A program made the position numbers and the translations under genes. The notes beneath the pieces were generated by a model. It saw only the letters and a program-made list of their open reading frames with translations, did no database searches and had not been told where the DNA came from. Below are positions 1 through 10,329 of a stretch of 10,329 nt of DNA, one piece after another. The stretch lies in NCBI GenBank assembly GCA_030601645.1, contig JAUWBQ010000045.1:1-10329 (forward strand), written 5' to 3'. Position 1 is the stretch's first letter; every line of letters starts with the position of its first letter. The DNA is from Candidatus Bathyarchaeota archaeon (lineage in GTDB: Archaea > Thermoproteota > Bathyarchaeia > TCS64).

Positions 1-499
1 CTGCGATCTCCAGTGCTCTACTGTTCACTACGCAGACATGGCCGCAGGTCCTGGTGAGACAGACCGGGTTGTCGGGGGCGGCCTCATCCAGATCCCATCT
101 CGTGGGATCCCTGTGCTCGGCGAGTTTGGCTTGGTCCCAGCCCCGCCCCTGGATCCACTCTCCGGGCTTCGCTTCCGCAGCCTTCTCCTTCACCGCGGCC
201 ATGATGTCTGCTATCGAGCTCATCGGAGGCGTCCTGCAGTTGATCTGGGACAGGGTGGTGCCGCTGCTCACCATGTGCAGGTGCGAGTCGATTAGGCCGG
301 GGAGGACCATCTTTCCTTTTAGGTCTATGATCTCTGTGGCTTCCCCTCTCCACGTTCTCATATCCTGATCTGTGCCAACGACGACGAATTTTCCGTCCTT
401 GACCGCGACGGCCTCGGCGATGCTGAACTCATCGCCTACTGTGATGATCTTGCCATTCATCAGCACGAGATCGGCCTTTGCGTGTTCTTCCATGACCAT
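1..499 (-). CDS. YtcJ-like amidohydrolase, N-terminal part (cut by window edge)
   Basis: The 166 visible residues are the start of a metal-dependent amidohydrolase of the YtcJ / amidohydrolase-3 group. The order is typical: a small N-terminal beta-sandwich (ADLVLMNGKIITVGDEFSIA, VAVKDGKFVVVG), then the entry to the TIM barrel with VLPGLIDSHLHM. H73 and H75 of that motif are the first metal ligands. Residues 116-122 (IQGRGWD) and 153-163 (GHVCVVNSRAL) are also typical of YtcJ. Members are usually over 500 aa, so about two thirds lies beyond the left edge. The family hydrolyses amide or related C-N bonds; the substrate cannot be told. No signal peptide is seen, so it is probably cytoplasmic. 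I chose ATG at 499; a second in-frame ATG lies at 493. A GAGG ribosome-binding site (508-511) sits 8 nt before ATG 499. The gene lies 56 bp downstream of the HTH regulator on the same strand. Confidence 0.88.
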   Translation of the reverse strand, partial: MVMEEHAKADLVLMNGKIITVGDEFSIAEAVAVKDGKFVVVGTDQDMRTWRGEATEIIDLKGKMVLPGLIDSHLHMVSSGTTLSQINCRTPPMSSIADIMAAVKEKAAEAKPGEWIQGRGWDQAKLAEHRDPTRWDLDEAAPDNPVCLTRTCGHVCVVNSRALEIA

Positions 500-507
500 T
501 AGAACTG

Positions 508-540
508 CCTCATAACAACTAGGTGAACCCGATATAACGT
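508..540 (-). promoter_or_regulatory. Putative archaeal promoter and ribosome-binding site of the amidohydrolase gene
   Basis: On the minus strand ACGTTATATC (540-531) is a TATA-like box about 26 bp before an expected transcription start near 510. It is followed by GAGG at 511-508, a Shine-Dalgarno match. The amidohydrolase may therefore have its own promoter besides read-through from the regulator gene. This rests on pattern and spacing only. Confidence 0.4.
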
Positions 541-555
541 TTTCATAGTGTGGCC

Positions 556-1023
556 TCACCAGGTCAGAAAGGTGATCTCCTTGACAAGGAGATCCGGGAC
601 CAGGCGCCGCCCCTCTTTCACGAGCCTCACGAAGCCGAGGCTCTCCAGGGTCTTCAGATCGTTGTAGACGTTCTTGACGTCTCTATTAATAGTGGTGGCC
701 AGCTCGTTGATTGAGTCCACCCTATGCCTTGAGATCTGATCCATGAGCTCTAATCTTCGGGGGGTCAGCTTCGAGATTTCATCTTTACTCAGCTCCAGGA
801 TGTCCTCTGTGAAGTAGTCGAAGTCCTCTCCCTCGCTATATGCCCTGAGGGCATGCTCCATCCCCATCCAATCCACGTAATCCTCGAAGGCCTCCCTATC
901 GATCTGTCCCTCGGCGAACCTATCGGGGATGTCGTCCATGTTTCCCCCGTATTTCGCCTCGAGATCTGCCACTCGGTGCCTCACTTCGCCCAGGGGGATC
1001 CTCCTGATAATTCTCAGTTGCAT
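556..1023 (-). CDS. Winged-helix transcriptional regulator, HVO_A0114-like
   Basis: This 155-aa protein has an acidic N-terminal region (about 1-80) and a C-terminal winged helix (about 86-155). The C-terminal part, with LTPRRLELMDQISRH, SINELATTINRDVKNVYNDL, LESLGFVRLVKEGRR and VPDLLVKEI, matches the pattern I associate with the archaeal HVO_A0114 family of putative DNA-binding proteins. The recognition helix is likely residues 114-127 and the wing 131-143. Residues 25-75 contain a segment (DRFAEGQIDREAFEDYVDWMGMEHALRAY in two overlapping helices) of the kind seen between N-terminal and HTH parts of some relatives, some of which act as antitoxins. No partner toxin is next to this gene. It is divergent from rtcB with a 77-bp gap holding a palindrome, which suggests autoregulation and perhaps control of rtcB. 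The regulated function is not known. The ATG at 1023 is the only good start in the reading frame. Confidence 0.8.
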   Translation of the reverse strand: MQLRIIRRIPLGEVRHRVADLEAKYGGNMDDIPDRFAEGQIDREAFEDYVDWMGMEHALRAYSEGEDFDYFTEDILELSKDEISKLTPRRLELMDQISRHRVDSINELATTINRDVKNVYNDLKTLESLGFVRLVKEGRRLVPDLLVKEITFLTW

Positions 1024-1037
1024 GGCTGAACCCTTTC

Positions 1038-1068
1038 ATTGGTGTCTATACCAATAAAGACTTATAAC
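1038..1068. promoter_or_regulatory. Divergent promoter region with palindromic operator candidate
   Basis: Between the regulator start (1023) and the rtcB start (1101) lies ATTGGTGTCTATACCAAT (1038-1055): perfect 6-bp arms ATTGGT and ACCAAT around a 6-nt centre, with one further T:A match inside. A TATA-like CTTATAAC (1061-1068) is placed correctly for a short-leader rtcB transcript. On the minus strand CTTTATTGG (1061-1053) could serve the regulator. The palindrome covers the presumed start region of the regulator and abuts the rtcB TATA box, so the regulator itself is the obvious candidate ligand. This is inferred from position; no binding data exist here. Confidence 0.5.
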
Positions 1069-1100
1069 TCCTTCTCGGGATAACCGGGGTGTGAAGTATA

Positions 1101-2549
1101 ATGCAGGTACCCATCAAGAAGATCAATGACCTCGTCTGGGAAGTGCCTGTGGAGTACAACAGGCACATGCGAGTCCCTGCCAGGATATACGCAGACGAGA
1201 CGCTCCTCGCCCAGATGAAAAGGGAGGAGACATTACACCAGGGGATAAACATCACGCAGCTTCCCGGCATCCAGAAGTATGGTATCATCCTCCCCGACGG
1301 CCACCAGGGTTACGGCTTCCCCATCGGCGGAGTCGCCGCCTTCGACGCTGAGGAGGGCATCATAACCCCCGGCGGCGTCGGATATGACATCAACTGCGGA
1401 GTCCGCCTAATGCGAACAGACTTGACTTATGAGGAGGTGAAGCCCAAGGCCCGGGAGCTCATAGAACGCATCTTCAAGCTCGTCCCGTGCGGCGTCGGCG
1501 TGGGCAGCAAGATTAGGCTCTCGACCCAGGAGCTGGATAACGCTGTGATGGAGGGCGTCGATTGGGCCATAGGCCGGGGATTCGGATGGGCCGGCGACTC
1601 TGAGCACATGGAGGAGGGGGGCTGCATGAAGGAGGCCAATCCTGACAAGGTCTCTGCCAGGGCTAAGAAGCGGGGTTCTAGCCAGTTTGGAACTCTTGGG
1701 GCTGGTAATCACTTCATGGAGATCGCCAGGGTTAAAGAGGTGTTCGACGAGGGCACGGCCAAGACCTTCGGGATCACTGGAGCCAACCAGATCGTGGCAT
1801 GGATCCACACGGGGTCGAGGGGGTATGGCCACCAGATAGCTTCCGACTACATTCGGGTGATGGACAGAGCTGTGAGGAAATATAACATCCGGATCCCGGC
1901 GAGGGAGCTGGGCTGTGCGCCCTTGAAGAGTCGGGAGGCTGAGGACTACTACGAGGCGATGTCGTGCGCCATCAACTGGGCGTTCATCAACCGGCACGTC
2001 ATCATGCATCGCGTGCGGCAGGCCTTCGAGGAGACCTTCAGGAGGTCTGCGGAGGACATGGGTATGAAGCTGGTCTACGGCATGACGCATAACACGGCCA
2101 AGAAGGAGGAGCACGATGTGAACGGTAAGCGTGTGAAGACTGTGGTTCACAGGAAGGGGGCTTCCAGGGCTTTCGGGCCCGGCCGGGCTGATCTGCCAGA
2201 GGATTACAGGGCGACGGGGCAGCCCGTGCTTCTGGTGGGGACCATGGGGACTGCCAGCTATCTCCTGGTGGGCACGGAAAGGAGTGAGGAGATCTCATTC
2301 GCGAGCACCGCTCACGGCGCGGGGAGGGTCATGTCGAGGACGGGGGCCCGGAAGCGTTTCCAGGCAAAGAATATCGTGTCCCAGTTGAAGAGGAAGGGCA
2401 TCGTGGTCAGGGCGGCCAGCGGCAGGGTGGTGGAGGAGGAGAGCCCTGAAAGTTATAAGGACGTCCACAGGGTGGTCGAGGTGAGTCACCGCTTGGGCAT
2501 CGGGAGGAGGGTCATGATGTCTGTGCCAATCGCCGTGGCTAAGGGATAG
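1101..2549 (+). CDS. rtcB: RNA-splicing ligase RtcB (tRNA ligase)
   Basis: This is a full-length 482-aa RtcB, the GTP- and Mn2+-dependent ligase that joins RNA ends bearing 2',3'-cyclic phosphate or 3'-phosphate to 5'-OH. In archaea it seals tRNA exons after intron removal. Conserved blocks are all present: LPDGHQGYGFPIGG (64-77), GGVGYDINCGVRL (91-103) with metal ligands D96 and C99, GAGNHFMEI (200-208) with H204, HTGSRGYGHQ (236-245), MTHNTAKKEE (328-337), and ASTAHGAGR (401-409) with H405 as the guanylylated histidine. Each sits one residue later than in the Pyrococcus horikoshii enzyme. There is no intein, although archaeal rtcB genes are a known intein host. The ATG at 1101 follows GGGGTG (1086-1091). 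No archease gene, the usual cofactor, is adjacent. The gene is divergent from the HTH regulator and converges on phoU with an 18-bp gap. Confidence 0.97.
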   Translation: MQVPIKKINDLVWEVPVEYNRHMRVPARIYADETLLAQMKREETLHQGINITQLPGIQKYGIILPDGHQGYGFPIGGVAAFDAEEGIITPGGVGYDINCGVRLMRTDLTYEEVKPKARELIERIFKLVPCGVGVGSKIRLSTQELDNAVMEGVDWAIGRGFGWAGDSEHMEEGGCMKEANPDKVSARAKKRGSSQFGTLGAGNHFMEIARVKEVFDEGTAKTFGITGANQIVAWIHTGSRGYGHQIASDYIRVMDRAVRKYNIRIPARELGCAPLKSREAEDYYEAMSCAINWAFINRHVIMHRVRQAFEETFRRSAEDMGMKLVYGMTHNTAKKEEHDVNGKRVKTVVHRKGASRAFGPGRADLPEDYRATGQPVLLVGTMGTASYLLVGTERSEEISFASTAHGAGRVMSRTGARKRFQAKNIVSQLKRKGIVVRAASGRVVEEESPESYKDVHRVVEVSHRLGIGRRVMMSVPIAVAKG

Positions 2550-2550
2550 C

Positions 2551-2567
2551 TTCCTTTTTTATCCTCT
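2551..2567 (+). terminator. T-rich terminator after rtcB
   Basis: Directly after the rtcB stop codon the plus strand reads TTCCTTTTTTATCCTCTTT, with six consecutive T at 2555-2560. Archaeal RNA polymerase can terminate at such U-tracts without a hairpin. The tract fills the whole gap to the convergent phoU stop codon. Confidence 0.45.
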
Positions 2568-3614
2568 TTATATTTGTGTTGAGCTCGTCTGGGTTATTTC
2601 CTCTAGTTTGTATGCCCTGTCTATGGTGATCTCGGCGATGTCGGCTGCGTGGTGGCTGATGTTCTTGATGCTCTCCCGCATGGTGATGACCTGGGAGAGG
2701 GAGGCCGTGTCGCCGGGTTTTCCGAATCGGGGGAGGGGGGTGATCTCTTTGAATAGCTCCCTTATGTTCTTCTGTCTGTCGATGATCTCGTTTGTCTGAT
2801 CTATGTTCTTGGTCAGGAAGCCGTTTACTGCCTCGTCGTAGGAGGTGAAGGCTATCTTGGCGGCCTCGACGAGGGTGGAGAGCACGTTTTCCGGTATCTC
2901 CATTTTGTTTTCGATGAGGGCTATGACGCTGTTGGCGATGTTGGTGGTGTGGTCGGCTATCCTTTCGATCCGGTGGACGAGGGTCTGGTAATCCAGGCAG
3001 TCGAGGGGGTCCAGACCCAGCTGTTTGCCCAGGGTGGGGTTGAGGGCGGCGCCTCGGATGAGCCTGAGGAGGAAGTATGTCAGCTGGTCGACGTCATCCT
3101 CTAGGGAGACTACGGATCTCGCCAGGTCTGTGTCCCAGTTCTCTGTGGCTTTGAGTATGTCCCGGCACATGGAGTATGTGATGATGTGAATCCTCTCTAT
3201 GCCTGAGACCACGGAGGCCTTGGACTCGTCTATGAGGGTCTGGAGGACGATGCTGCTGGCCTCCGACTCCATGACCATCATGTAGAGGGTGCCGACGATC
3301 TTGCGGATAGCCCTCTGCTGGTCGGCTGTGAATATCTTGGCGGATGACAGCTTGATGGTGTTGTACCCGTCGAGGTATGATCCTATGATGCGTCTGACGA
3401 TGGATTCATCGCTCTCGTCGGCTTCCACGCACAGGTGGATCTCCCTCTTCGTCTCTTTGGGGGTCGGGGTGGGGTGGATGATCAGGCAGCCGTCGCTCTG
3501 GATGTCCATCGAGACCATGTCTCCCCGGCCTAGGGCGTTCATCTTCAGCCAGGGTTTGGGGATGGAGACCACCATGGAGGACTTCCCGAGGGCCATGATC
3601 TTCCTCTGTTCCAT
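2568..3614 (-). CDS. AbrB-PhoU family phosphate uptake regulator-like protein
   Basis: This 348-aa protein has an N-terminal SpoVT/AbrB swapped-hairpin DNA-binding fold (about 1-50, with MALGKSSMVVSIPKPWLKMN and LGRGDMVSMDIQSDGCLII) followed by two PhoU-type helical bundles. The bundles are recognisable by LEDDVDQLTYFLLRLIRG (171-188), RIERIADHTTNIANSVIALI (215-234) and MRESIKNISHHAADIAEI (312-329). The AbrB-PhoU fusion is a common archaeal architecture annotated as phosphate uptake regulator. PhoU domains bind metal clusters and modulate Pst phosphate transport, and the AbrB part implies DNA binding. No pst transporter genes are in the window. The open frame extends upstream to 3974 but that part lacks family similarity and overlaps the zinc-ribbon genes. 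I chose ATG 3614 because the AbrB domain starts there and a TATA box lies about 30-40 bp upstream, suggesting a short leader. It is convergent with rtcB. Confidence 0.88.
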   Translation of the reverse strand: MEQRKIMALGKSSMVVSIPKPWLKMNALGRGDMVSMDIQSDGCLIIHPTPTPKETKREIHLCVEADESDESIVRRIIGSYLDGYNTIKLSSAKIFTADQQRAIRKIVGTLYMMVMESEASSIVLQTLIDESKASVVSGIERIHIITYSMCRDILKATENWDTDLARSVVSLEDDVDQLTYFLLRLIRGAALNPTLGKQLGLDPLDCLDYQTLVHRIERIADHTTNIANSVIALIENKMEIPENVLSTLVEAAKIAFTSYDEAVNGFLTKNIDQTNEIIDRQKNIRELFKEITPLPRFGKPGDTASLSQVITMRESIKNISHHAADIAEITIDRAYKLEEITQTSSTQI

Positions 3615-3640
3615 CGTATGTCGCCATGGATGTAGAGGGG

Positions 3641-3776
3641 GGTTATACTTATATTTTCTATGTTGATTAAGACGTTCGTGGGCGGTGTTCGTATCGGTAT
3701 ATATGACTATATATTGTATTAGGGATATTGCTGAAATGTATATATCTTTGTTTGGGGGATTTTCTGATAAGGAGGG
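3641..3776. promoter_or_regulatory. Divergent promoter region, phoU-like / zinc-ribbon genes
   Basis: This AT-rich gap of about 170 bp separates the phoU-like gene (minus) and the first zinc-ribbon gene (plus). On the minus strand AAATATAAGTATAACC (3655-3641 area) gives a TATA box for phoU. On the plus strand ATGTATATATCTT (3736-3748) fits a start near 3769, followed by the strong Shine-Dalgarno GGAGGG (3771-3776). Between them GGTATATATGACTATATATT (3696-3715 area) has two TATATA-type runs facing each other around TGAC, which could be another TATA box or a regulator site. Confidence 0.45.
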
Positions 3777-3782
3777 ATATGT

Positions 3783-3908
3783 TTGAAATACAAGTGTCTG
3801 AAGTGTGGGGCCGAGTTCGACGTCACCTTCGACCCGAAGTGTGGGGCGTTTGACAGGGATGTCGAGCCCCCGAGGAAGTATTTGGAAGCGCAGGCAGTCA
3901 GAGAGTGA
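3783..3908 (+). CDS. Small zinc-ribbon-like protein, 41 aa, TTG start
   Basis: Reading from TTG at 3783 gives a 41-aa protein beginning MKYKCLKCGAEFDVTFDPKC and ending in an acidic/basic tail (RDVEPPRKYLEAQAVRE). C5 and C8 form a CxxCGAEF knuckle of the rubredoxin or zinc-ribbon type. The second knuckle is DPKCG, so the expected third cysteine is Asp17 and only C20 remains. Coding status is supported by the strong GGAGGG (3771-3776) at 6-nt spacing and by a paralogue 46 bp downstream with the same start codon and layout. Such proteins may be small Zn-binding adaptors or part of larger complexes, but no function can be named. An ATG at 3779 is in another frame and does not give the cysteine pattern. 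Confidence 0.6.
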   Translation: MKYKCLKCGAEFDVTFDPKCGAFDRDVEPPRKYLEAQAVRE

Positions 3909-3954
3909 CCTTCTCCAAGCTACAGAGCGGCGGGTTGGATGAGGTGAGGCGTGG

Positions 3955-4077
3955 TTGAAGTTCAGGTGTAACAAGTGTGGGGCGGAGTTCGAGGCGAGGT
4001 TGGTGGCTCAGTGCCCCAATTGCGGCGAGTCCCTGGACGTCCAGCCCGTTTACGCCTCTAAATTGTCGAAGCCGTAG
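3955..4077 (+). CDS. Small zinc-ribbon protein, 40 aa, TTG start
   Basis: TTG at 3955 opens a 40-aa protein starting MKFRCNKCGAEFEARLVAQC. It has a complete four-cysteine zinc ribbon: C5 and C8 in CNKCGAEF, C20 and C23 in CPNCGESLDV. A short tail (QPVYASKLSKP) follows. The purine-rich GAGGTGAGG (3941-3949) lies 5 nt before TTG and acts as Shine-Dalgarno. The sequence is clearly related to the gene just upstream (shared MK-(Y/F)-(K/R)-C-x-K-CGAEF), so this is a tandem duplication. A T-run follows the stop. The role is unknown; nucleic-acid or protein binding through the ribbon is the usual theme. Confidence 0.7.
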   Translation: MKFRCNKCGAEFEARLVAQCPNCGESLDVQPVYASKLSKP

Positions 4078-4133
4078 GCGTCTTGGGCGCGGTGTTGGCT
4101 GGATCGGCGCCTGGGGCGTACGTGTTGGCTCCC

Positions 4134-4145
4134 TCCTCTTTTTTT
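4134..4145 (+). terminator. T-rich terminator after zinc-ribbon genes
   Basis: CCTCTTTTTTT around 4134-4145 has seven T in a row (4139-4145) on the coding strand, 57 bp after the stop of the second zinc-ribbon gene and before the ribK promoter. Confidence 0.4.
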
Positions 4146-4179
4146 GGTGGATCGTTGGGTTCGTGTTTACTTGTGAATA

Positions 4180-4213
4180 GGTATTTATCTGGGGGTTTCT
4201 ACTCGTTTTTTGG
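4180..4213 (+). promoter_or_regulatory. ribK promoter, probably leaderless transcript
   Basis: GGTATTTATCTGG has a TATA-like TATTTAT at about 4184-4190. Transcription would start about 26 bp later, near 4213, only a few bases before ATG 4219. No Shine-Dalgarno is visible before that ATG, which fits a leaderless mRNA. This also argues for ATG 4219 over the in-frame TTG at 4210. Confidence 0.4.
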
Positions 4214-4218
4214 TTACG

Positions 4219-4944
4219 ATGTCCGGTGTCGGCGATGGGGGGCGGTTGAGGCCTTTCCTGTGGTTCACGTTGTATGAGCTTCTCGTTTTGGGGGCGGTCT
4301 CCGGGGCAGTGAGGATTTCCACGGTTAGGCTGGCGGGGTTGTTGGGTTGTTCTCAGCAGTCGGCGTCCCGGCATCTCAGGCTCTTGGAGGAGATGGGTCT
4401 GGTGTCTCGTCGGTTGGGGGCGGACGGGAGTTTGATCAGGATCACGAGGGCGGGTCTCGAGGCGCTCTCCGAGGTCTATTACGGGATGAGGGGTTGGATC
4501 GAGGGGGGTGGGGAGGAGGTGTTGGTGTTCGAGGGTTCGGTCTTCAGCGGGATGTCTCAGGGGGGGTACTATGTCTCCCAGCCTTTCTATCGGGAGCAGC
4601 TGAGGGAGATGCTGGGGTTCGATCCGTATCTGGGGACTCTGAATCTCAGGTTGAGGGAGGGGTTTCTGGAGCAGAGGCGGGTGTTGGAGGGGTGGCCTGC
4701 GTTCAGGATCGAGGGTTTCAGGGGGGAGGACAGGGCTTTCGGCGGTGGTCGGTGTTATCCTCTGGTGGTGAACGATGAGGTCGAGGGGGCGCTGGTGGTG
4801 GCGGATAGGACGTCCTACGATCTCTCGGTGATGGAGGTGATCGCGCCCGTGAGCCTGCGGGAGCGGTTCGGGCTGGAGGACGGGGACACGGTGAGGCTGA
4901 CCATCCGGTCTTCTGGGCGTGGGTCTCCAGGGGCGGGTGGCTGA
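4219..4944 (+). CDS. ribK: CTP-dependent riboflavin kinase with N-terminal HTH (RibK)
   Basis: This 241-aa protein joins a MarR/ArsR-like winged helix (about 30-92; LAGLLGCSQQSASRHLRLLE followed by EMGLVSRRLG) to a DUF120 / archaeal riboflavin kinase domain (about 100-230). The kinase makes FMN from riboflavin with CTP rather than ATP. Family marks are GSVFSGMSQGGYYVSQPFY (106-124), LGFDPYLGTLNLRL (132-145) with the TLN signature, DRTSYD (196-201) and EVIAPVSLRE (206-215) before LEDGDTVRL. HTH-RibK fusions are known in archaea, where the HTH suggests a regulator of riboflavin genes that may sense its own cofactor. It faces the rnp4-dphB-ribL operon, whose last gene does the next step. Codon use is extremely G-rich (Gly, Arg, Val). 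In-frame TTG 4210 is an alternative start. Confidence 0.93.
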   Translation: MSGVGDGGRLRPFLWFTLYELLVLGAVSGAVRISTVRLAGLLGCSQQSASRHLRLLEEMGLVSRRLGADGSLIRITRAGLEALSEVYYGMRGWIEGGGEEVLVFEGSVFSGMSQGGYYVSQPFYREQLREMLGFDPYLGTLNLRLREGFLEQRRVLEGWPAFRIEGFRGEDRAFGGGRCYPLVVNDEVEGALVVADRTSYDLSVMEVIAPVSLRERFGLEDGDTVRLTIRSSGRGSPGAGG

Positions 4945-5191
4945 GCGTCGTCTCTCGTTGTCGAGCGTCGATTTTGGGGCCTGTAGTTATGGGTGGGTGG
5001 TCTGGCCCCCTTCCCCCTGTATTTTAAAACGTTGTTTTCAGGGTTCTTTCGTGTTTTTGGTTTGTTCTGGGGTTTTTCGAGGTTATTTTTCTCTCTTTTT
5101 TCCTACTTTTTTATAGAATTTTATATTTAATTGTAGTTGAATGGTGGTGGATGTCATTTGGGTAGTTGGCTACGGGGAGGGGGGGCGGTTT
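4945..5191 (+). terminator. Non-coding gap with T-rich terminator tracts after ribK
   Basis: The 247 bp between the convergent ribK and ribL stops hold no credible gene. The plus strand is T-rich, with runs at 5084-5089 and 5095-5101 and TTTTTTATAG near 5107-5116; several consecutive U-tracts of this kind form a typical archaeal terminator region for ribK. No comparable T-run faces ribL on the minus strand. Confidence 0.45.
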
Positions 5192-5641
5192 TCAGTATGT
5201 GGTTCTCAGGTCTTCTACGATCTTTCTCTTGATCTTGGAGCTGCTGTCGAGGTCGGACTGGCCGAATCTGCCTATTCTGACCACCTTGATTGGGAGGCCT
5301 TTTTCCTTGATGGCTTTCTTGGCCATTCTTTCTATGGCGTCTTGGTCGTGGCCGACGGCGATGATGTCGGGCTTTACTTTTTCGATGACGGTGGCCATGT
5401 CCATGTCTTCGTAGCCTAGGAGGGCTTCGTCTACGACTTTGAGGGCTTCGATGAGGGCTCGGCGCTGGTCTTCGGGGAAGACCGGGGGTTTGTTTTTGAG
5501 GCGTTTGACGGTCTCGTCTCTGGCGATGATGACCACGAGTTTGGCGTCGGGTCCTCCGTGGCTTTTCGCTTCTTCGAGGAGGCGGATGTGGCCGTAGTGG
5601 ATGAGGTCGAAGGCTCCGGATGTGAGGACTGTCTTGGGCAT
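5192..5641 (-). CDS. ribL: Archaeal FAD synthase (RibL)
   Basis: This 149-aa protein is a nucleotidyltransferase of the cytidylyltransferase-like class that adenylates FMN to FAD; in archaea RibL does this. It shows TSGAFDLIHYGHIRLLEEAK (7-26) with the HxGH nucleotide motif at 15-18, the DETVKRLKNKPPVFPEDQR segment (42-60), a central PDIIAVGHDQ (91-100) and a C-terminal DSSSKIKRKI (132-141), equivalent to the ISSSxI motif. Length is normal for RibL. It is the last gene of an operon: only 3 nt separate it from the dphB stop. Together with ribK on the other strand it provides the complete riboflavin to FMN to FAD route. Glycerol-3-phosphate cytidylyltransferase is the main alternative for this fold, but the archaeal context and motifs favour RibL. 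Confidence 0.9.
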   Translation of the reverse strand: MPKTVLTSGAFDLIHYGHIRLLEEAKSHGGPDAKLVVIIARDETVKRLKNKPPVFPEDQRRALIEALKVVDEALLGYEDMDMATVIEKVKPDIIAVGHDQDAIERMAKKAIKEKGLPIKVVRIGRFGQSDLDSSSKIKRKIVEDLRTTY

Positions 5642-5644
5642 GGT

Positions 5645-6682
5645 TTACCACTCGAATTCGACCAGGCCGAGGAGTTTGAGGGCGTCGAGGATGCCCTCGG
5701 CGTAGCTGACGGATGCTAGGGCGGTGGGTTTCCGTTCCTCGGCGTAGTGGTCTGCGTCGTTCAGGTACCTTTCCGCGTGTTGGATTAAAGCCTTTACTTC
5801 GTCGGGGGTGAGGGTTTTGGGGGGGTCTCTGGTTTCGAGTTCGTCGATGGCTTTGCGGCAGCCCGTGGTGTATTTCTCGATGAGGGTGTCTGTGGTGCTC
5901 GCTGGCTTGTGGTGTTCTAATGCCTCTGGCGGGCATCCGCCGATGGTCTTGAGGGCTTCGGCCTCTAGGAAGTGGAGTCTCCCGGGGATGATGAGGGCTT
6001 GGGGCGGGTCTCCGAAGTCGTGGTTGGAGAGGTCTCCGGCTGTGTTGGCCTTGATGGTCTGGTCGTTCCAGCCGAGGCGGGCGACGCCGATGGTGAGTGT
6101 GTCTGTGTTGTAGGCTTCTGGGTTGTCTGCTTCGAGGAGGATCTGGATGGCTCCGGGGATTGTGTGGGCCTGCTTTTTCTGGGTGTCGAGGTCCAGGAGG
6201 ATAAGGGTGTGGAGGCCGTGTTCCTTGTTTTCTGTTAGCGTCCTGAGCACGGTGTCCGGGGGGGCTTTCTCGGGGAGGGGGAGGGTGACGGTGCGGCCGA
6301 ATTTGTAGAGGCTGAGGCCGGTCTCGGCGATGGCGGTGAGGATGCTGGAGCCGTGGATGATTGTGGTTTTGATTCCTTTCTTTGCGGCGTCGAGGAGGAG
6401 GGGTAGGTGGGTTGTGGCGGTGAGGGCGTCGCCGCCTACGAGGATACCGATCTTCTTATGCTGGGCTTCTTCTAGGAGGGCGTCGGAGTTCTCCTCCATC
6501 TGGCTGCGGGTGAGGGGTGTTACGGGTTTGCCGATGAGGGTTGCCAGGCGTTCGGTGTCGGTGTCGAGGATCGTGGTGTAGAGCTCGGCGTAGAGTGTGT
6601 CGCAGTCCCTGGCTTCTTGGAGGGCTTTGAGGCTGAGGTCGTCCTCGTCTGTGAGGCCGATGCTGATGAGGGTGAGTGTCAT
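5645..6682 (-). CDS. dphB: Diphthine synthase DphB with C-terminal DUF357 domain
   Basis: Residues 1 to about 255 are a diphthine synthase, the SAM-dependent methyltransferase that trimethylates the modified histidine of elongation factor 2 during diphthamide formation. Marks are MTLTLISIGL (1-10), CDTLYAELYT, LVGGDALTATTH (81-92, the SAM-binding GDxLxATTH), GSSILTAIAETGLSLYKFGR (111-130), VARLGWNDQTIKA (200-212) and LHFLEAEAL (236-244). The usual length is about 250-270 aa, but this protein has 345. The extra residues, about 262-345, with AERYLNDADHYAEERKPTAL and SYAEGILDALKLLGLVEF, match the archaeal helical domain DUF357 (unknown function). The start ATG 6682 overlaps the rnp4 stop as ATGA and has GAAGGAGAAGG just upstream. 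The gene is followed 3 nt later by ribL. Confidence 0.92.
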   Translation of the reverse strand: MTLTLISIGLTDEDDLSLKALQEARDCDTLYAELYTTILDTDTERLATLIGKPVTPLTRSQMEENSDALLEEAQHKKIGILVGGDALTATTHLPLLLDAAKKGIKTTIIHGSSILTAIAETGLSLYKFGRTVTLPLPEKAPPDTVLRTLTENKEHGLHTLILLDLDTQKKQAHTIPGAIQILLEADNPEAYNTDTLTIGVARLGWNDQTIKANTAGDLSNHDFGDPPQALIIPGRLHFLEAEALKTIGGCPPEALEHHKPASTTDTLIEKYTTGCRKAIDELETRDPPKTLTPDEVKALIQHAERYLNDADHYAEERKPTALASVSYAEGILDALKLLGLVEFEW

Positions 6683-6993
6683 GTTTCCTTCTCCTTCAGG
6701 GGGAGTCGGTGGATGTGGCCGCATTTGAGGCAGGTGGTGGTGACGTGGGGTTCGCGGCGCTGGCGGATGCGGGTGCGGCTGGTGGTGCCTGGGACGAGGT
6801 AGGATTTGCAGCTGGGGCAGACGCGTCTTCTTAGGTCTTGGGGGAGGTGGGTGCGGGTGCGCATGGCGATCTTGCGGGCGAGGTCGACGTGGCGCTGGGC
6901 GAGGGTGGGGTCTTGGGGGAATGTTTCTTCTGCCTGTTGGAATAGGGTGCGGATGCGTTCTTGGGCGATCTTGGTGGTCTCTCTGGGGGGCAT
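6679..6993 (-). CDS. rnp4: RNase P protein component 4 (Rpp21 homologue)
   Basis: This 104-aa protein is the archaeal Rpp21/Rpr2 subunit of RNase P, which helps the catalytic RNA trim 5' leaders from pre-tRNA. Two N-terminal helices (KIAQERIRTLFQQAEETF; RHVDLARKIAMRTRTHL) precede a zinc ribbon with C59, C62, C88 and C91 (VCPSCKSYLVPG; CLKCGHIHRLPL). The run LARKIAMRTR and the PG after the first knuckle are hallmarks of the family. It is the first gene of the rnp4-dphB-ribL operon and its stop overlaps the dphB start by 4 nt. No Shine-Dalgarno precedes the ATG. Its promoter seems shared with the divergent initiator tRNA 75 bp away. Confidence 0.93.
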   Translation of the reverse strand: MPPRETTKIAQERIRTLFQQAEETFPQDPTLAQRHVDLARKIAMRTRTHLPQDLRRRVCPSCKSYLVPGTTSRTRIRQRREPHVTTTCLKCGHIHRLPLKEKET

Positions 6994-7033
6994 GGTGGTG
7001 GGCCTTTTTTCGTTGGGGTTGGGGGCCGGAAGG

Positions 7034-7042
7034 GTTTATAAG
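7034..7042. promoter_or_regulatory. TATA box usable in both directions (rnp4 and tRNA-iMet)
   Basis: GTTTATAAG at 7034-7042 is close to symmetrical. On the plus strand it lies about 30 bp before the mature 5' end of the tRNA (7068). On the minus strand (CTTATAAAC) it predicts a start near 7012, about 19 nt before the rnp4 ATG. It is the only good TATA match between the two genes. Confidence 0.5.
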
Positions 7043-7067
7043 ATTAGGGTGGGTGTTTGTTGGTTGG

Positions 7068-7145
7068 AGCGGGGTAGGGCAGCCAGGTTAGCCCGTGGGG
7101 CTCATAACCCCAAGGTCGGTAGTTCAAATCTACCCCCCGCTACCA
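7068..7145 (+). tRNA. Initiator tRNA-Met (CAT)
   Basis: A complete cloverleaf with encoded CCA: acceptor AGCGGGG (7068-7074) with CCCCGCT (7135-7141); D arm GGGC (7077-7080) with GCCC (7091-7094); anticodon stem TGGGG (7096-7100) with CCCCA (7108-7112); loop CTCATAA with anticodon CAT (7103-7105); variable AGGTC; T arm GGTAG TTCAAAT CTACC (7118-7134); discriminator A7142 and CCA 7143-7145. The A1:U72 pair and the run of G:C pairs in the anticodon stem are the archaeal initiator identity. There is no intron. The 3' end is repeated three times downstream, making this tRNA the likely integration site of the adjoining accessory DNA. Confidence 0.96.
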
Positions 7146-7162
7146 TTTCTGTTATAATTGCT

Positions 7163-7181
7163 ACCGCTTATAGCGGTTTTT
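7163..7181 (+). terminator. Hairpin plus T-run behind the tRNA
   Basis: ACCGCT (7163-7168), loop TAT, AGCGGT (7172-7177), then four further T to 7181: a perfect 6-bp stem followed by a run of five T counted from 7177. This resembles an intrinsic terminator and sits 18 nt after the tRNA CCA. Alternatively it is part of the att region, since TAGCGGT recurs beside the third tRNA fragment (8942-8948). Confidence 0.5.
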
Positions 7182-7272
7182 CGGGGGTTCATTGTTATGT
7201 GTGAATGTCTGCGATTTCTGGGTTGTAGGGTTCACACTTCATTGCTTTTCGTAATTGATAGATGTGGTAGTT

Positions 7273-7333
7273 GGTTAGCCCGTGGGGCTCATAACCCCAA
7301 GGTCGGTAGTTCAAATCTACCCCCCGCTACCAT
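7273..7333 (+). repeat. Second copy of the tRNA-iMet 3' part (att-like), not a full tRNA
   Basis: The 61 nt 7273-7333 are identical to 7086-7146, covering the D-arm 3' half, anticodon arm, T arm, acceptor 3' strand and CCA. The upstream part is unrelated (GATGTGG in place of AGCGGGG), so the acceptor and D stems cannot form properly. It therefore looks like an att repeat from an insertion in the tRNA gene rather than a working second tRNA. Confidence 0.85.
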
Positions 7334-7397
7334 CAAAACGTTAAACTGGGAATTTTTGGGGGGTTATCTTGGGGTTAAGGCTGGTTCAATCTAATCC

Positions 7398-7422
7398 CCA
7401 GAACGACCATTCTGGTTCGCGC
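7398..7422. repeat. Hairpin and left GGTTCGCGC repeat beside the M28 gene
   Basis: CCAGAA (7398-7403), loop CGACCA, TTCTGG (7410-7415) is a perfect 6-bp inverted repeat. It overlaps CATTCTGGTTCGCGC (7408-7422). A near-identical CATTCGGTTCGCGC occurs in inverted orientation at 8876-8863, on the other side of the M28 gene. The pair may be terminal inverted repeats of the inserted DNA. Confidence 0.5.
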
Positions 7423-7451
7423 ACACTAGTTAGTATGAAGAAAATAGATGG

Positions 7452-8630
7452 TTAATTTTGGGATGAAGAGCCAATCGCCGTGGCGATGGAGGCTTTGCAC
7501 ACTTTAACGATGAACTCGAAATCAAGCTTGTCAATCGTATCCGCCCTAGTATGATAATAAGGATACCGGAAGTTCCCTGAATCAGATAGGAAAATTGCAG
7601 GAATACCTTCTCTCCAGAATGGCGCATGATCTGATCTTATTAAATCATGCATTTTCTCAGCAATCACATCATAACTCAAGGGAACATGCATACAGGCGAA
7701 AGGTAATCCCACCTCGTCCATCTTGCAGCTGTTAGTAAACAACTCTAGCAATGATCCAGAATTTGAGTCACCGATGCCCGCAAGATAGTTCCCTACATAG
7801 ATGTCCTCGACGAGGTGTGTTCTAAACATGTCTGGACTCATACCAACAGGAAGTGACTGCGAATGAGGGTTCTTAGACGTGTATCCAATTGCATCAAGGT
7901 TTATTACGCCAGCGATGTCGATGTTTCTAGATTTCTCCTCAACCCAGTGACTACTCCCAATGCAGATCAATTTTCCAACCCGAGAACCAAGCGTAACTCC
8001 CTTGTGGAGCTCTGCGAATCCTTCAAAATAATGAAGTTCATTCTCACTCATCCGATCCTTTAATTCATCCATAAATATCTTTACGCTATCTGCATAGTCT
8101 CTCCCCCTTTGTCTTCCCCCTAAAATATATCCATTCAACTCCTTCCGTAGCCTCTGAGTGTTGAGACTCTTGAAGTTGTAGTTCTCATCCATTAAACCCA
8201 GTTCCTGAGCTGCAACCATGGATCTACGCCAGTATTCAGGTGAGCCCTCTTCCAAGGTGAATCCTATTACTCGAACGTTGAGGGGTTCATTGACCTTCGA
8301 TAGGACTCTTGCGGCCTCCAGCATGACCGAGACAGCTGATAAGTTGTCATCCGCCCCCGGTGACTGGGGGAAGGTATCATAGTGAGTCGTCAACAGCAGT
8401 TCGGGGTTCTCTCCCGTGTCTATAACGCCTTCAACGTTCCTGTATTGATCATTATCTACCTCGACCTTCTGCTCACTCACCTGAAGACCGTATCGTTCAA
8501 GCTCTGAGCTAATATAATCGGCTGCTGAGTCAAGCTTCTCTGGAGAATATATTGGATCATTGGGTCCTTCCAGTTCCAGTATATGCCTGAACAATCTTTC
8601 TTCGTCTACTTCTTTGAGAAGTTGCACCAT
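7452..8630 (-). CDS. M28 family metallopeptidase (cytoplasmic aminopeptidase-like)
   Basis: The 392-aa protein is a zinc peptidase of family M28. Numbered from GTG 8636, two codons upstream of the ATG chosen here, the metal and catalytic residues are present: THYDTF (H85, catalytic D87), SPGADDNLSA (bridging D96), FTLEEGSPEYW (E129 base, E130 ligand), INLDAIGY (D248) and YYHTRADTIDKLD (H362). SDHAPFWREGIPAIFLSD before the last histidine is also typical. The family removes N-terminal amino acids from peptides; some members cleave carbamoyl or glutaminyl substrates. No signal peptide or transmembrane segment is seen, so it should act in the cytoplasm, probably in peptide turnover. It is the only gene between the second and third tRNA-derived repeats and is AT-richer than the core genes, which suggests acquisition. 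GTG 8636 is an alternative start. A TATA-like TTTATCAA (minus strand, about 8674-8667) would give a very short leader. Confidence 0.9.
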   Translation of the reverse strand: MVQLLKEVDEERLFRHILELEGPNDPIYSPEKLDSAADYISSELERYGLQVSEQKVEVDNDQYRNVEGVIDTGENPELLLTTHYDTFPQSPGADDNLSAVSVMLEAARVLSKVNEPLNVRVIGFTLEEGSPEYWRRSMVAAQELGLMDENYNFKSLNTQRLRKELNGYILGGRQRGRDYADSVKIFMDELKDRMSENELHYFEGFAELHKGVTLGSRVGKLICIGSSHWVEEKSRNIDIAGVINLDAIGYTSKNPHSQSLPVGMSPDMFRTHLVEDIYVGNYLAGIGDSNSGSLLELFTNSCKMDEVGLPFACMHVPLSYDVIAEKMHDLIRSDHAPFWREGIPAIFLSDSGNFRYPYYHTRADTIDKLDFEFIVKVCKASIATAIGSSSQN

Positions 8631-8636
8631 ATTCAC

Positions 8637-8970
8637 ATATTTAGAATTAAGTCAAGAAAAGAGTTTTGATAAAGGGGCCGATGATTAGATTTGGAGTTCT
8701 TTATACAATGTGCTTTTCGCACTCTCTCTTATCGAAGACTATGATATGCTTCATCTAAGCCGCACATACAATAATACACGTCCTCGACACTGGATCACCG
8801 TGCATCTCTCAGCCGTCGAGAGCTAACGAGGAACTCTGGGTGTACAGGATTCTCTCTTTCACGCGCGAACCGAATGATTCAGACGGAGAATAAGTAATTA
8901 AAATAGATGCCGTCATACTTTCACGTGCAAGAATAACTAAATAGCGGTACAATTAAATGACATAAGTCAC
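8637..8970. other. Non-coding stretch upstream of the M28 gene
   Basis: I see no credible gene in these 334 bp. They hold the probable M28 promoter (about 8667-8674 on the minus strand), a small inverted repeat CTCTC / GAGAG around AGCCGTC (8815-8831 area), and the inverted copy of the GGTTCGCGC repeat at 8863-8876. TAGCGG at 8942-8947 is complementary to CCGCTA inside the next tRNA fragment. Confidence 0.5.
8863..8876 (-). repeat. Right copy of the GGTTCGCGC inverted repeat
   Basis: Read on the minus strand this is CATTCGGTTCGCGC. It matches CATTCTGGTTCGCGC at 7408-7422 apart from one missing T, in opposite orientation. A third GGTTCGCGC lies at 10056-10064 next to the fourth tRNA-derived repeat. 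Confidence 0.5.
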
Positions 8971-8986
8971 CTACCCCCCGCTACCA
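8971..8986 (+). repeat. Third tRNA-iMet 3'-end copy (att-like, 16 nt)
   Basis: CTACCCCCCGCTACCA is identical to tRNA positions 7130-7145: the 3' strand of the T stem, the 3' strand of the acceptor stem, the discriminator and CCA. It is in the same orientation as the tRNA, and no other tRNA part is present. It separates the M28 unit from the DapA-like unit. Confidence 0.75.
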
Positions 8987-9080
8987 GTTCTCCAGTTTTT
9001 TCCGCGTCAGCCAGTGGGTATAAGGGTTTCACGAGACACGTCTTTCCATGGAGCGAAACAAGAAGATGATGAAGTTACAG

Positions 9081-9087
9081 AAAAAAA
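9081..9087 (-). terminator. T-run behind the DapA-like gene
   Basis: Seven A on the plus strand (9081-9087) are seven T on the minus strand, 10 nt past the stop codon of the DapA-like gene. This fits an archaeal U-tract terminator. Confidence 0.45.
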
Positions 9088-9096
9088 GAAATCAGT

Positions 9097-9978
9097 TTAA
9101 ATCATTCTCTGATGTTTTAACAGTGATTCTAGCTCTTTCTTATGATATTCTGCTCCAAGGGATTGGGGTGGTAAAACCTTATCGGACTTGATTACCCCCA
9201 TTAATTTAAGCGCATATTTATGTGCCCATTGCCAGTTCTCAAAGAATCCACTGTCATTCCATGTTAAAAATTTCTCATACCAGAGTTTTCTGGCTTCATC
9301 AATTTTTCCTTCTTTAACTAAGGATAGAAGTTTTACGTTTTCCTCAGGTAGTACGGAGGCGGTAGCAGTCATAATGCCTTTACAACCAAGGAGTAGAAAT
9401 CTTAAAGTCCAATGATCTACCCCACAGAACTTGTAGAGTTTATCTCCCAGTGATTTATCCAGTTTTTGCAGAAATGCACAATCAAGGTAACCATTTTTTA
9501 TGTGAGAGATTCTTTCTTCATTTACAAGCCTTTTCAGTACACCAAATGGTATCGGATCATCGGCCCTTGCATATGCAACGATATGGATATCTGTTGCATC
9601 AGTTAAAGCCTTGAAATGGTGATACAGTTCATTTTCGGAGTATGTGCGCATTCCTTGGGGATTGAATGCAAGTATTGCATCGGCACCGAAGTCGTCAGCT
9701 GCTCTGATTAGTTCAACTGCTCTTCCGGTGCTCATCGATGCACATCCCACCATTAGCGGGCCTCTGCCATTCATGTGATCCACCGATGTTTTCACAACCG
9801 TTTTCCAGTCTTCATCAGATAGTAGGTAACCCTCACCGGCTGCTGCCAAAACACCTACCCCATGGCACCCGTTTTCTAATTGAAAATCGATCACGGATCG
9901 AAGTGATTCTTTATCTATTTTTCCATCATCATCTAGAGGTGTAGGAGGAAGAGCAATAACATCCTTAAATTCTTTCAT
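9097..9978 (-). CDS. DapA / dihydrodipicolinate synthase superfamily aldolase-like protein
   Basis: A 293-aa Schiff-base aldolase or lyase of the DHDPS/NAL superfamily with the usual TIM-barrel length. In the numbering from TTG 9987 (three codons upstream), the N-terminal IALPPTPLDDDGKIDKESL (11-29), the Schiff-base lysine K164 in ISHIKNGY and tyrosine Y139 in IVAYARAD are retained, as is LYHHFKAL (121-128). The loop that is G-T-T-G-E in true DHDPS reads AAAGEG (48-53), so the proton-relay threonine is missing, and the YYN segment is replaced by AFNPQG. It is therefore unlikely to be the lysine-pathway DHDPS; a sugar-acid aldolase, dehydratase or hydratase-aldolase is more likely, substrate unknown. 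It is alone between the third and fourth tRNA-derived repeats and is AT-rich. ATG 9978 is chosen; TTG 9987 is possible. A TATA-like ATAAATAT (about 10015-10008, minus) predicts a near-leaderless transcript. Confidence 0.87.
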   Translation of the reverse strand: MKEFKDVIALPPTPLDDDGKIDKESLRSVIDFQLENGCHGVGVLAAAGEGYLLSDEDWKTVVKTSVDHMNGRGPLMVGCASMSTGRAVELIRAADDFGADAILAFNPQGMRTYSENELYHHFKALTDATDIHIVAYARADDPIPFGVLKRLVNEERISHIKNGYLDCAFLQKLDKSLGDKLYKFCGVDHWTLRFLLLGCKGIMTATASVLPEENVKLLSLVKEGKIDEARKLWYEKFLTWNDSGFFENWQWAHKYALKLMGVIKSDKVLPPQSLGAEYHKKELESLLKHQRMI

Positions 9979-10020
9979 TCTACTCAAAATCTAAGTCTAA
10001 TTTTCTGATATTTATGTATA

Positions 10021-10069
10021 CGCGCGCGCGTTGCACCCCCCGCTACCATTTCTCGGGTTCGCGCGCGCG
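10021..10069. repeat. Alternating CG inverted repeat enclosing the fourth tRNA 3'-end copy
   Basis: CGCGCGCGCG at 10021-10030 and again at 10060-10069 are mutually complementary 10-bp arms around a 29-nt centre. The centre contains ACCCCCCGCTACCATTTCT (10035-10053), identical to 7132-7150, that is the tRNA 3' end plus the five bases that follow the intact tRNA. GGTTCGCGC (10056-10064) overlaps the right arm. The sharing of TTTCT with the region behind the intact tRNA suggests that this copy keeps the original chromosomal flank or a longer att core. Confidence 0.75.
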
Positions 10070-10099
10070 ATGAACTGAACGAGAACAAGGATCGAGCTC

Positions 10100-10120
10100 G
10101 GCATCCTCTTAGAGAATGCC
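10100..10120. repeat. Hairpin upstream of the dehydrogenase gene
   Basis: GGCAT (10100-10104) and ATGCC (10116-10120) pair; after one C/A mismatch CTC pairs with GAG around the loop TTA. It is followed by six A, not T, on the plus strand, so it is not a plus-strand terminator. It may be an operator or part of the insertion border. Confidence 0.35.
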
Positions 10121-10174
10121 AAAAAATATTACTTATCCAATAACCAAATATCTCTCTAGGAAAGGTGATTTGGA

Positions 10175-10329
10175 GTGTTTGATTTCAGGAATAAGGTAGC
10201 GGTTGTAACTGGGTCTTCCCGCAGTATTGGGAAGTCTATCGCATTAGCACTCGCGAGATGCGGCTGTGCAGTAACTATCAATTATCGTAAGAGCCGAGAC
10301 GAAGCGGATGAGGTCGTTAACTCCATCAG
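10175..10329 (+). CDS. Short-chain dehydrogenase/reductase (SDR), N-terminal part (cut by window edge)
   Basis: From GTG 10175 the frame gives about 51 residues: MFDFRNKVAVVTGSSRSIGK, then a helix SIALALARCGCAVTINYRKS and RDEADEVVNSI. TGSSRSIG is the TGxxx(x)xG dinucleotide-binding motif of classical SDRs, followed by the alpha-B helix and beta-2 strand. NYRKS at the end of beta-2, with basic residues instead of an acidic one, favours NADP(H). The catalytic Tyr-x-x-x-Lys lies beyond the edge. GGTGAT (10164-10169) is a fair ribosome-binding site. The gene belongs to the unit after the fourth tRNA-derived repeat and, unlike the two cassette genes before it, points away from the tRNA. Substrate cannot be told. 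Confidence 0.82.
   Translation, partial: MFDFRNKVAVVTGSSRSIGKSIALALARCGCAVTINYRKSRDEADEVVNSI

Follow-up and report, generated by a model that had tools for sequence, protein, structure and literature searches.

The initiator tRNA-Met (tRNA-iMet) gene of a Candidatus Bathyarchaeota archaeon is followed by a real, recurrent tRNA-anchored gene array, in which small stretches of DNA are separated by copies of the 3' end of that tRNA. We describe it in contig JAUWBQ010000045.1 of assembly GCA_030601645.1, whose positions 1 to 10,329 (10,329 nucleotides, forward strand) are referred to here as the window, and in related Bathyarchaeia genomes designated by G numbers. As judged by comparison of these sequences, the repeats, their common strand, the units between them, the reappearance of units in other surroundings and, in relatives, an integrase at this tRNA are features of the locus. 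They are probably best explained by an integration hotspot of Bathyarchaeia anchored at tRNA-iMet, with serial site-specific integration of small integrase-free units that are moved in trans; circular intermediates, the trans action itself and the movement of units one at a time are what we infer from the comparison. The original prediction, made from the letters of the window, had described an integron-like array of single-gene cassettes at a tRNA end; as a whole it is partly supported, and the known tRNA-anchored additive islands fit better than the term integron. To our knowledge, little is known of how uncultured Bathyarchaeia gain metabolic genes, and a locus that lines up small units of ordinary metabolic genes behind one tRNA, with readable boundaries, offers a constant site at which long-read metagenomes could be used to follow how genes come and go.

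The core motif ACCCCCCGCTACCA is found in four exact copies in the window (7132-7145, 7319-7332, 8973-8986 and 10035-10048), all on the plus strand and precisely where they had been predicted; a search of the window allowing up to two mismatches adds nothing to these four. The mean chance expectation for such matches was 0.15 over 200 shuffles, none of which contained four, and short tandem or chance repeats are ruled out as the origin of the copies by these shuffles together with the control searches for tRNA-iMet fragments described below. The first copy ends an intact initiator tRNA-Met(CAT) at 7068-7145 (plus strand; one tRNA-Met(CAT) called by ARAGORN), the presumed attB attachment site. 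The core-to-core spacings of 187, 1654 and 1062 bp were also predicted correctly. The second copy had been taken for another 14-nt repeat; the core is present there, but it ends a 61-nt exact repeat (7273-7333, plus strand, 61/61 identical to 7086-7146 in the repeat search), a displaced 3' fragment of tRNA-iMet. The boundaries in the window are of two kinds, one long tRNA fragment (copy 2) and two short cores of 14-15 nt (copies 3 and 4). The flanks of copies 3 and 4 are unlike each other. Copy 3 and its left arm occupy 8945-8986 (plus strand), and this arm recurs, at 90% identity over 40 bp by BLAST, at a core site of G237 that closes a different unit. Copy 4 is an exact match with CGCGCGCGCG runs on both sides, the alternating runs extending over 10021-10075.

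Unit 1 (1654 bp) carries an M28 family peptidase gene (7452-8636, minus strand; PF04389, E 1.1e-25) and unit 2 (1062 bp) a DapA-like gene of the DHDPS family (9097-9987, minus strand; PF00701, E 6e-47), Pfam thus bearing out both of the assignments made from the translations. The open third unit holds the start of an SDR gene (10175-10329, plus strand; adh_short, E 1.7e-6). The G+C content is 57.5% at 1-7067 and 43.4% at 7333-10329. Upstream of the tRNA lie its conserved neighbours rpr2 (6679-6993) and dph5 (5645-6724), both on the minus strand and both identified by Pfam.

Related Bathyarchaeia possess the same locus, rpr2-dph5 and tRNA-iMet, followed by rows of tRNA-iMet 3' fragments that match the tRNA up to its full length and occur in all states of decay; Dph5 relatives are located upstream of tRNA-iMet in many of them. 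A search of the contig collection with Dph5 returned a single relative (60% identity), in the Bathyarchaeota metagenome-assembled genome (MAG) G001, where the locus is alike: tRNA-iMet, a partial copy 178 bp further, and then the contig end. When 16 contigs were searched with tRNA-iMet (E<=0.05), 36 matches were obtained on the plus strand and none on the minus strand, nine of them being intact tRNA-iMet genes; in the same contigs no match was obtained with the reversed query, with any of three shuffled versions or with three other tRNAs. A tRNA-Arg(CCT) control query gave 12 matches (11 plus, one minus), and of the best six of these, five coincide with intact iMet genes and the sixth lies at another place in G238. 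Contig C1 of G238 (reversed) contains a tRNA-Arg(CCT)-like stretch at 38187-38250. A profile derived from tRNA-iMet hits places 11 same-strand fragments downstream of the intact tRNA on contig C90 of G236, of which the last two are weak (E 0.06 and 0.2), and it reveals additional rows in G238, G001 and G237. A 24-nt T-arm pattern (up to three mismatches) matched 22 of the 31 clade genomes, seven with at least two sites and five with at least three, the sites of G234 and G237 not all lying in one row; the reversed pattern matched none of the 31.

The exact 14-mer is present in 101 of the 256 genomes of the class of G001 and more than once in just four of these: four times in G001 and twice each in G171, G232 and G236, both G171 copies sitting in complete tRNAs. 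A core common elsewhere in the genome and an invariant gene order among relatives had been named as grounds for giving up the original prediction; neither is observed, and gene order differs from one relative to the next. The locus consists of a conserved tRNA with variable units behind it, bounded by repeats of the tRNA 3' end, which is the arrangement of an additive island, or tandem accretion.

The first interval of 187 bp is gene-free, yet homologous in the window, G001 and G236 by alignment and in G238 and G235 by BLAST. We refer to its non-coding part (7146-7272, plus strand) as the leader; in G235 it sits behind a short core, with no intact tRNA at the start of that contig. All five leaders include two GTTCWCTGTTCCGTG-like direct repeats, 43 bp apart, with one to four mismatches (7187-7201 with three and 7230-7244 with four in the window), and these spaced repeats could be arm sites for an integrase. 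The unit directly behind the leader is that of the M28 peptidase in the window, of an SDR in G236 and of an MFS protein in G238. The predicted hotspot that collects small gene units at a tRNA end is supported. From these alignments the leader looks like an entry platform, with differential loss as the alternative.

Content and order of the arrays differ even between the close relatives G236 and G238. Within each contig of G238 the blocks common to both genomes follow the same order as in G236, with the exception of the MFS unit, which comes directly after the leader in G238 and in sixth place in G236, has fragments at both ends in each, and starts behind the first fragment in G247. In all three genomes the anticodon-stem part of the left fragment is where the shared sequence begins, and the sequence before it differs (by eye and from BLAST starts). 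The left and right fragments of the MFS unit overlap in the variable loop and T-arm only, those of the M28 and DapA units in the last 14-16 nt only, and this difference implies, on our interpretation, at least two core types at one tRNA. Homology between G236 and G238 breaks off at fragments more frequently than expected when fragments are permuted over intergenic places: 12 of 39 within 5 bp against 3.3 expected (0/5000 permutations), with p 0.0006 within 15 bp and p 0.0064 within 30 bp, the last figure being the safest because the mutual likeness of the fragments pulls alignments towards them. In four arrays, those of G236, G237, G001 and G238, a tRNA fragment follows an overlapping gene pair of about 133 and 179 amino acids (helix-turn-helix in the G001 copy, nucleotidyltransferase DUF2204), which was noted at L076:10913-11828 and L037:1418-2333.

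Furthermore, window positions 10106-10329, the SDR stretch including 69 non-coding bases before the gene, are 90% identical to G236 and 88% to G238; since the backbone reaches 76-77%, a transfer of the SDR unit is suggested. Among right flanks of fragments, 41 of 1275 pairs score above the level that marks the top 0.1% of random pairs, where 1.3 would be expected, many of the 41 being orthologous sites and the leader family; 15 of 861 left-flank pairs exceed the right-flank score threshold. Empty sites in relatives had also been envisaged, and G236 indeed has neither an M28 nor a DapA unit in the stretch from leader to SDR, but its likeness to the window picks up again only 92 bp past the G236 fragment, and this imprecise junction was not accepted as a clean empty site. 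A large insertion in G238, obtained by reading contigs C1 and C24 in series, was dropped as the linkage of the two is unknown.

On six contigs, 31 intervals under 8 kb separate successive sites, with a median of 1464 bp (one 10.8 kb interval of G001 left out and three core-like matches dropped beforehand); unit sizes cluster near 1-2.5 kb and the genes are largely full-length and host-type. Single-gene units, as predicted, are what the M28 and DapA units are, but across the six contigs just 14 of the 31 intervals have one open reading frame (ORF) of at least 100 amino acids; six have none, six have two, three have three, one has four and one has seven, in a count that selects ORFs by length alone and may include some that are not genes. 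The uniform orientation that had been proposed is likewise true of the M28 and DapA genes and is lost across the arrays, where 37 genes run with the tRNA and 22 against it. The array regions contain 103 ORFs, 30 of which were sent to Pfam, and 26 matched at 1e-5: SDR, DsbD, TruD, ArsR, ArsP, MFS, class V aminotransferase, PIN, metallo-beta-lactamase fold, alcohol dehydrogenase, M20, TBP, radical SAM, serine dehydratase, TIR and others. Fragments or cores stand at both ends of the MFS unit and of the window units, which hold one gene and no integrase of the iMet-linked family; this is the structure of a cis-mobilizable element (CIME). DapA relatives occur in 29 of the 31 clade genomes, the best (59%) in G251, where the only core-like match nearby falls inside the span of the gene. 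Relatives of the M28 peptidase were found in none of the 31 clade genomes and none of 398 genomes in a search without a positive control; a protein search returned a Bathyarchaeota M28 at 68% and, without that attribution, a further M28 at 92%.

Relatives encode a candidate enzyme at this tRNA. In G255 (with one break), G254 (cut by the contig end) and G233 (cut by an N run) the reading frame of an integrase begins within or immediately after intact tRNA-iMet, an integrase remnant lies behind intact tRNA-iMet in G246, and in G251, where the place of the tRNA is N, an integrase lies beside Rpr2 and Dph5, both of which also adjoin the integrase in G233 and G255. The C-terminal piece of the G255 integrase scores 25.2 bits against PF00589, just below the cut-off of 27.1. 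Sister integrases (frames of 318-331 amino acids) are joined likewise to the 3' end of tRNA-Gln(TTG) in G242, G087 and G099 (L144, L145 and L146), which indicates that the family switches its tRNA target; the G242 sister has a Phage_integrase domain (PF00589, 60.1 bits), and its best solved structure is archaeal XerA. These searches employed PF00589 and the iMet-linked family. In the window no ORF matched the iMet-linked family. The PF00589 matches in G236:C81 and G001:C15, both close to tRNA-Arg(CCT), and in G238:C24, close to tRNA-Leu(TAG), were not taken as the iMet enzyme because of these other tRNAs. As for a viral source, viral contigs gave no exact 24-nt tRNA-end match and no relative of the G242 sister integrase, the iMet integrase not being part of that scan.

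In the mechanism that we favour, tyrosine integrases would use the 3' part of tRNA-iMet as attachment site and insert DNA there, each insertion restoring the tRNA and displacing a 3' fragment. Repeated insertion would line up units, many of which hold one or two host-type genes but no integrase, and such units would be moved in trans by an integrase like that behind tRNA-iMet in relatives. The original prediction had required an integrase acting in trans or lying outside the window, and the tyrosine integrases at tRNA-iMet make this plausible; trans action is nevertheless only what we infer, as five array genomes have no integrase match and tblastn gave no remnant in the arrays. Mobility of single units in trans is the most likely mechanism, and unproven.

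Several observations count against this mechanism and temper our confidence in it, above all that no complete iMet integrase gene was seen, the five cases amounting to one frame break, one contig end, two N runs and one remnant. Relatives of the G255 piece are present in 132 of the 256 class genomes and are so widespread that their kinship is unspecific and the tie to tRNA-iMet rests on position. Among the array genomes, a match to the G255 integrase at 1e-3 exists in G236 and is absent from G001, G235, G237, G238 and G247; tblastn detected no integrase remnant in the arrays, where the sole trace is a stretch of similar DNA behind one fragment of G001. Neither circles nor excised forms were seen, and MAG assemblies can be wrong. 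In the window, G236, G238 and G001 the leader stays beside the tRNA, which places later insertions behind the leader and not into the tRNA itself. The cores are of two kinds, where a single type had been expected, and a lone iMet T-arm fragment lies at G237:C1:618636-618659, about 740 kb from the array on the same contig. Decay is uncorrelated with order in the row (G236 rho -0.39, p 0.24), and the idea that older fragments lie farther out was unsupported in all five arrays tested.

A bolder version of the hotspot would be a cassette system separate from integrons, with the tRNA-iMet 3' end as the shared site and the leader, its spaced repeats and its fragment as entry platform, in which tRNA-linked integrases acting in trans would capture and move circles of one gene each and pass them from lineage to lineage; this we put forward as a tentative possibility.

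The most serious competitor, albeit an unlikely one, considers the array a graveyard, in which each fragment is the scar of an earlier integration by a larger element that carried an integrase itself, later deletions have left one or a few genes between fragments, and single genes are not mobile. The integrase at tRNA-iMet in relatives, the fragments in every state of decay and the decayed integrase-like DNA behind position 6957 of G001_C113 (score 32 to the start of the G255 integrase) are all consistent with it, and part of a published account records tandem integration at one archaeal locus (PMC8371274). It fits poorly with the clustering of unit sizes, the largely full-length, host-type genes, the negative tblastn result and the recurrence of the MFS unit and the nucleotidyltransferase pair beside different neighbours.

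Homologous recombination between tRNA-like repeats might instead shuffle or import units without a site-specific recombinase, given that similarly oriented repeats of 20-61 nt might be substrates for RecA-type exchange. The shortest cores, at 14-15 nt, are short for homologous recombination, an integrase at tRNA-iMet exists in relatives, and the flanking of each unit by tRNA ends in one orientation would be left unexplained; although exchange between tandem integrated elements has been discussed for archaea (PMC8371274, in part), we regard this as very improbable. True integron cassettes, in the form of clusters of attC sites lacking integron integrases (CALINs) whose tRNA likeness is incidental, deserve hardly any credence. 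Archaeal integrons have been reported (PMC9668308), the array recalls them in its small gene units, its recurring sites and its lack of a local integrase, and one GTTRRRY stands 8 nt behind core 2 (7340), but the sites match tRNA-iMet up to full length and two RYYYAAC motifs in the units (8133, 9711) are far from any core. Integron cassette genes mostly share one orientation, and the mixed orientation here, together with the T-arm test, disfavours integron membership: across 42 fragments 45+14 changes break T-arm pairing and 20+8 keep it, a proxy for a folded attC made without a covariance model, and in 31 in-register fragments 24+5 are broken against 17+2 kept (29 vs 19). The integron-like character originally proposed survives in part. 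An assembly or binning artefact is next to negligible: of 15 clade loci, 5 do have a contig end less than 500 bp downstream of tRNA-iMet and none of the 15 has one as close upstream (p 0.042; G234 and G244, with the tRNA at the contig edge, left out), so assembly is hard there, but leader, strand and fragment pattern are alike in independent assemblies and control patterns gave none.

The serial integration hotspot can be set beside known systems, as described in the portions of the cited texts drawn on here. Archaeal integrons and CALINs (PMC9668308) are alike in their rows of small gene units split by recombination sites, often with no integrase adjacent; the array differs in having tRNA 3' ends as sites, no sign of a hairpin constraint and mixed gene orientation, and the string 'bathyarchae' occurs 0 times in the main text of that paper. 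A tRNA-iMet array of this kind in Bathyarchaeia was not reported in the titles and abstract beginnings searched, a scope mostly outside the subscription literature. If units move singly, they would be an archaeal counterpart of integron cassettes with a tRNA end instead of attC hairpins. The archaeal SSV-type and SNJ2 integrases (PMC8371274) likewise belong to the Phage_integrase family and use tRNA 3' regions; the SNJ2 attachment site is 14 nt and stem-loop-free, equal in length to the short cores of the window, and the joining of the iMet integrase gene to the tRNA end recalls the SSV type, whose int gene harbours the attachment site and is split when the element integrates, though no N-terminal integrase piece was identified at a distal fragment. 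Those integrases move viruses or plasmids that carry them, whereas the units here have none. The ssrA islands of Dehalococcoides (PMC3146451) are also tandem, downstream of an RNA gene and bounded by 3'-end repeats (20 bp there), and 15 of 31 lack an integration module and are discussed as possible cis-mobilizable elements; they differ in belonging to a bacterium, a tmRNA gene and a serine recombinase, and in their larger size (vcr islands about 12 kb). Tandem insertions that have RNA-gene ends as their borders are already known (PMC3146451, PMC10872708, PMC4119200). The closest parallel is with the additive flexible genomic islands at tRNA genes, fGI-2 of Ca. Methylopumilus (PMC10872708) and fGI1 of Alteromonas (PMC4119200), where a conserved tRNA is the target and units are added one behind another. 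The Bathyarchaeia locus is set apart by its archaeal host, tRNA-iMet, units that mostly measure 1-2.5 kb, fragments that can reach almost the whole length of the tRNA, the conserved leader and its spaced repeats and, in relatives, an integrase gene that reads out of the tRNA, and as such it is an archaeal, fine-grained form of the tRNA-anchored additive islands.

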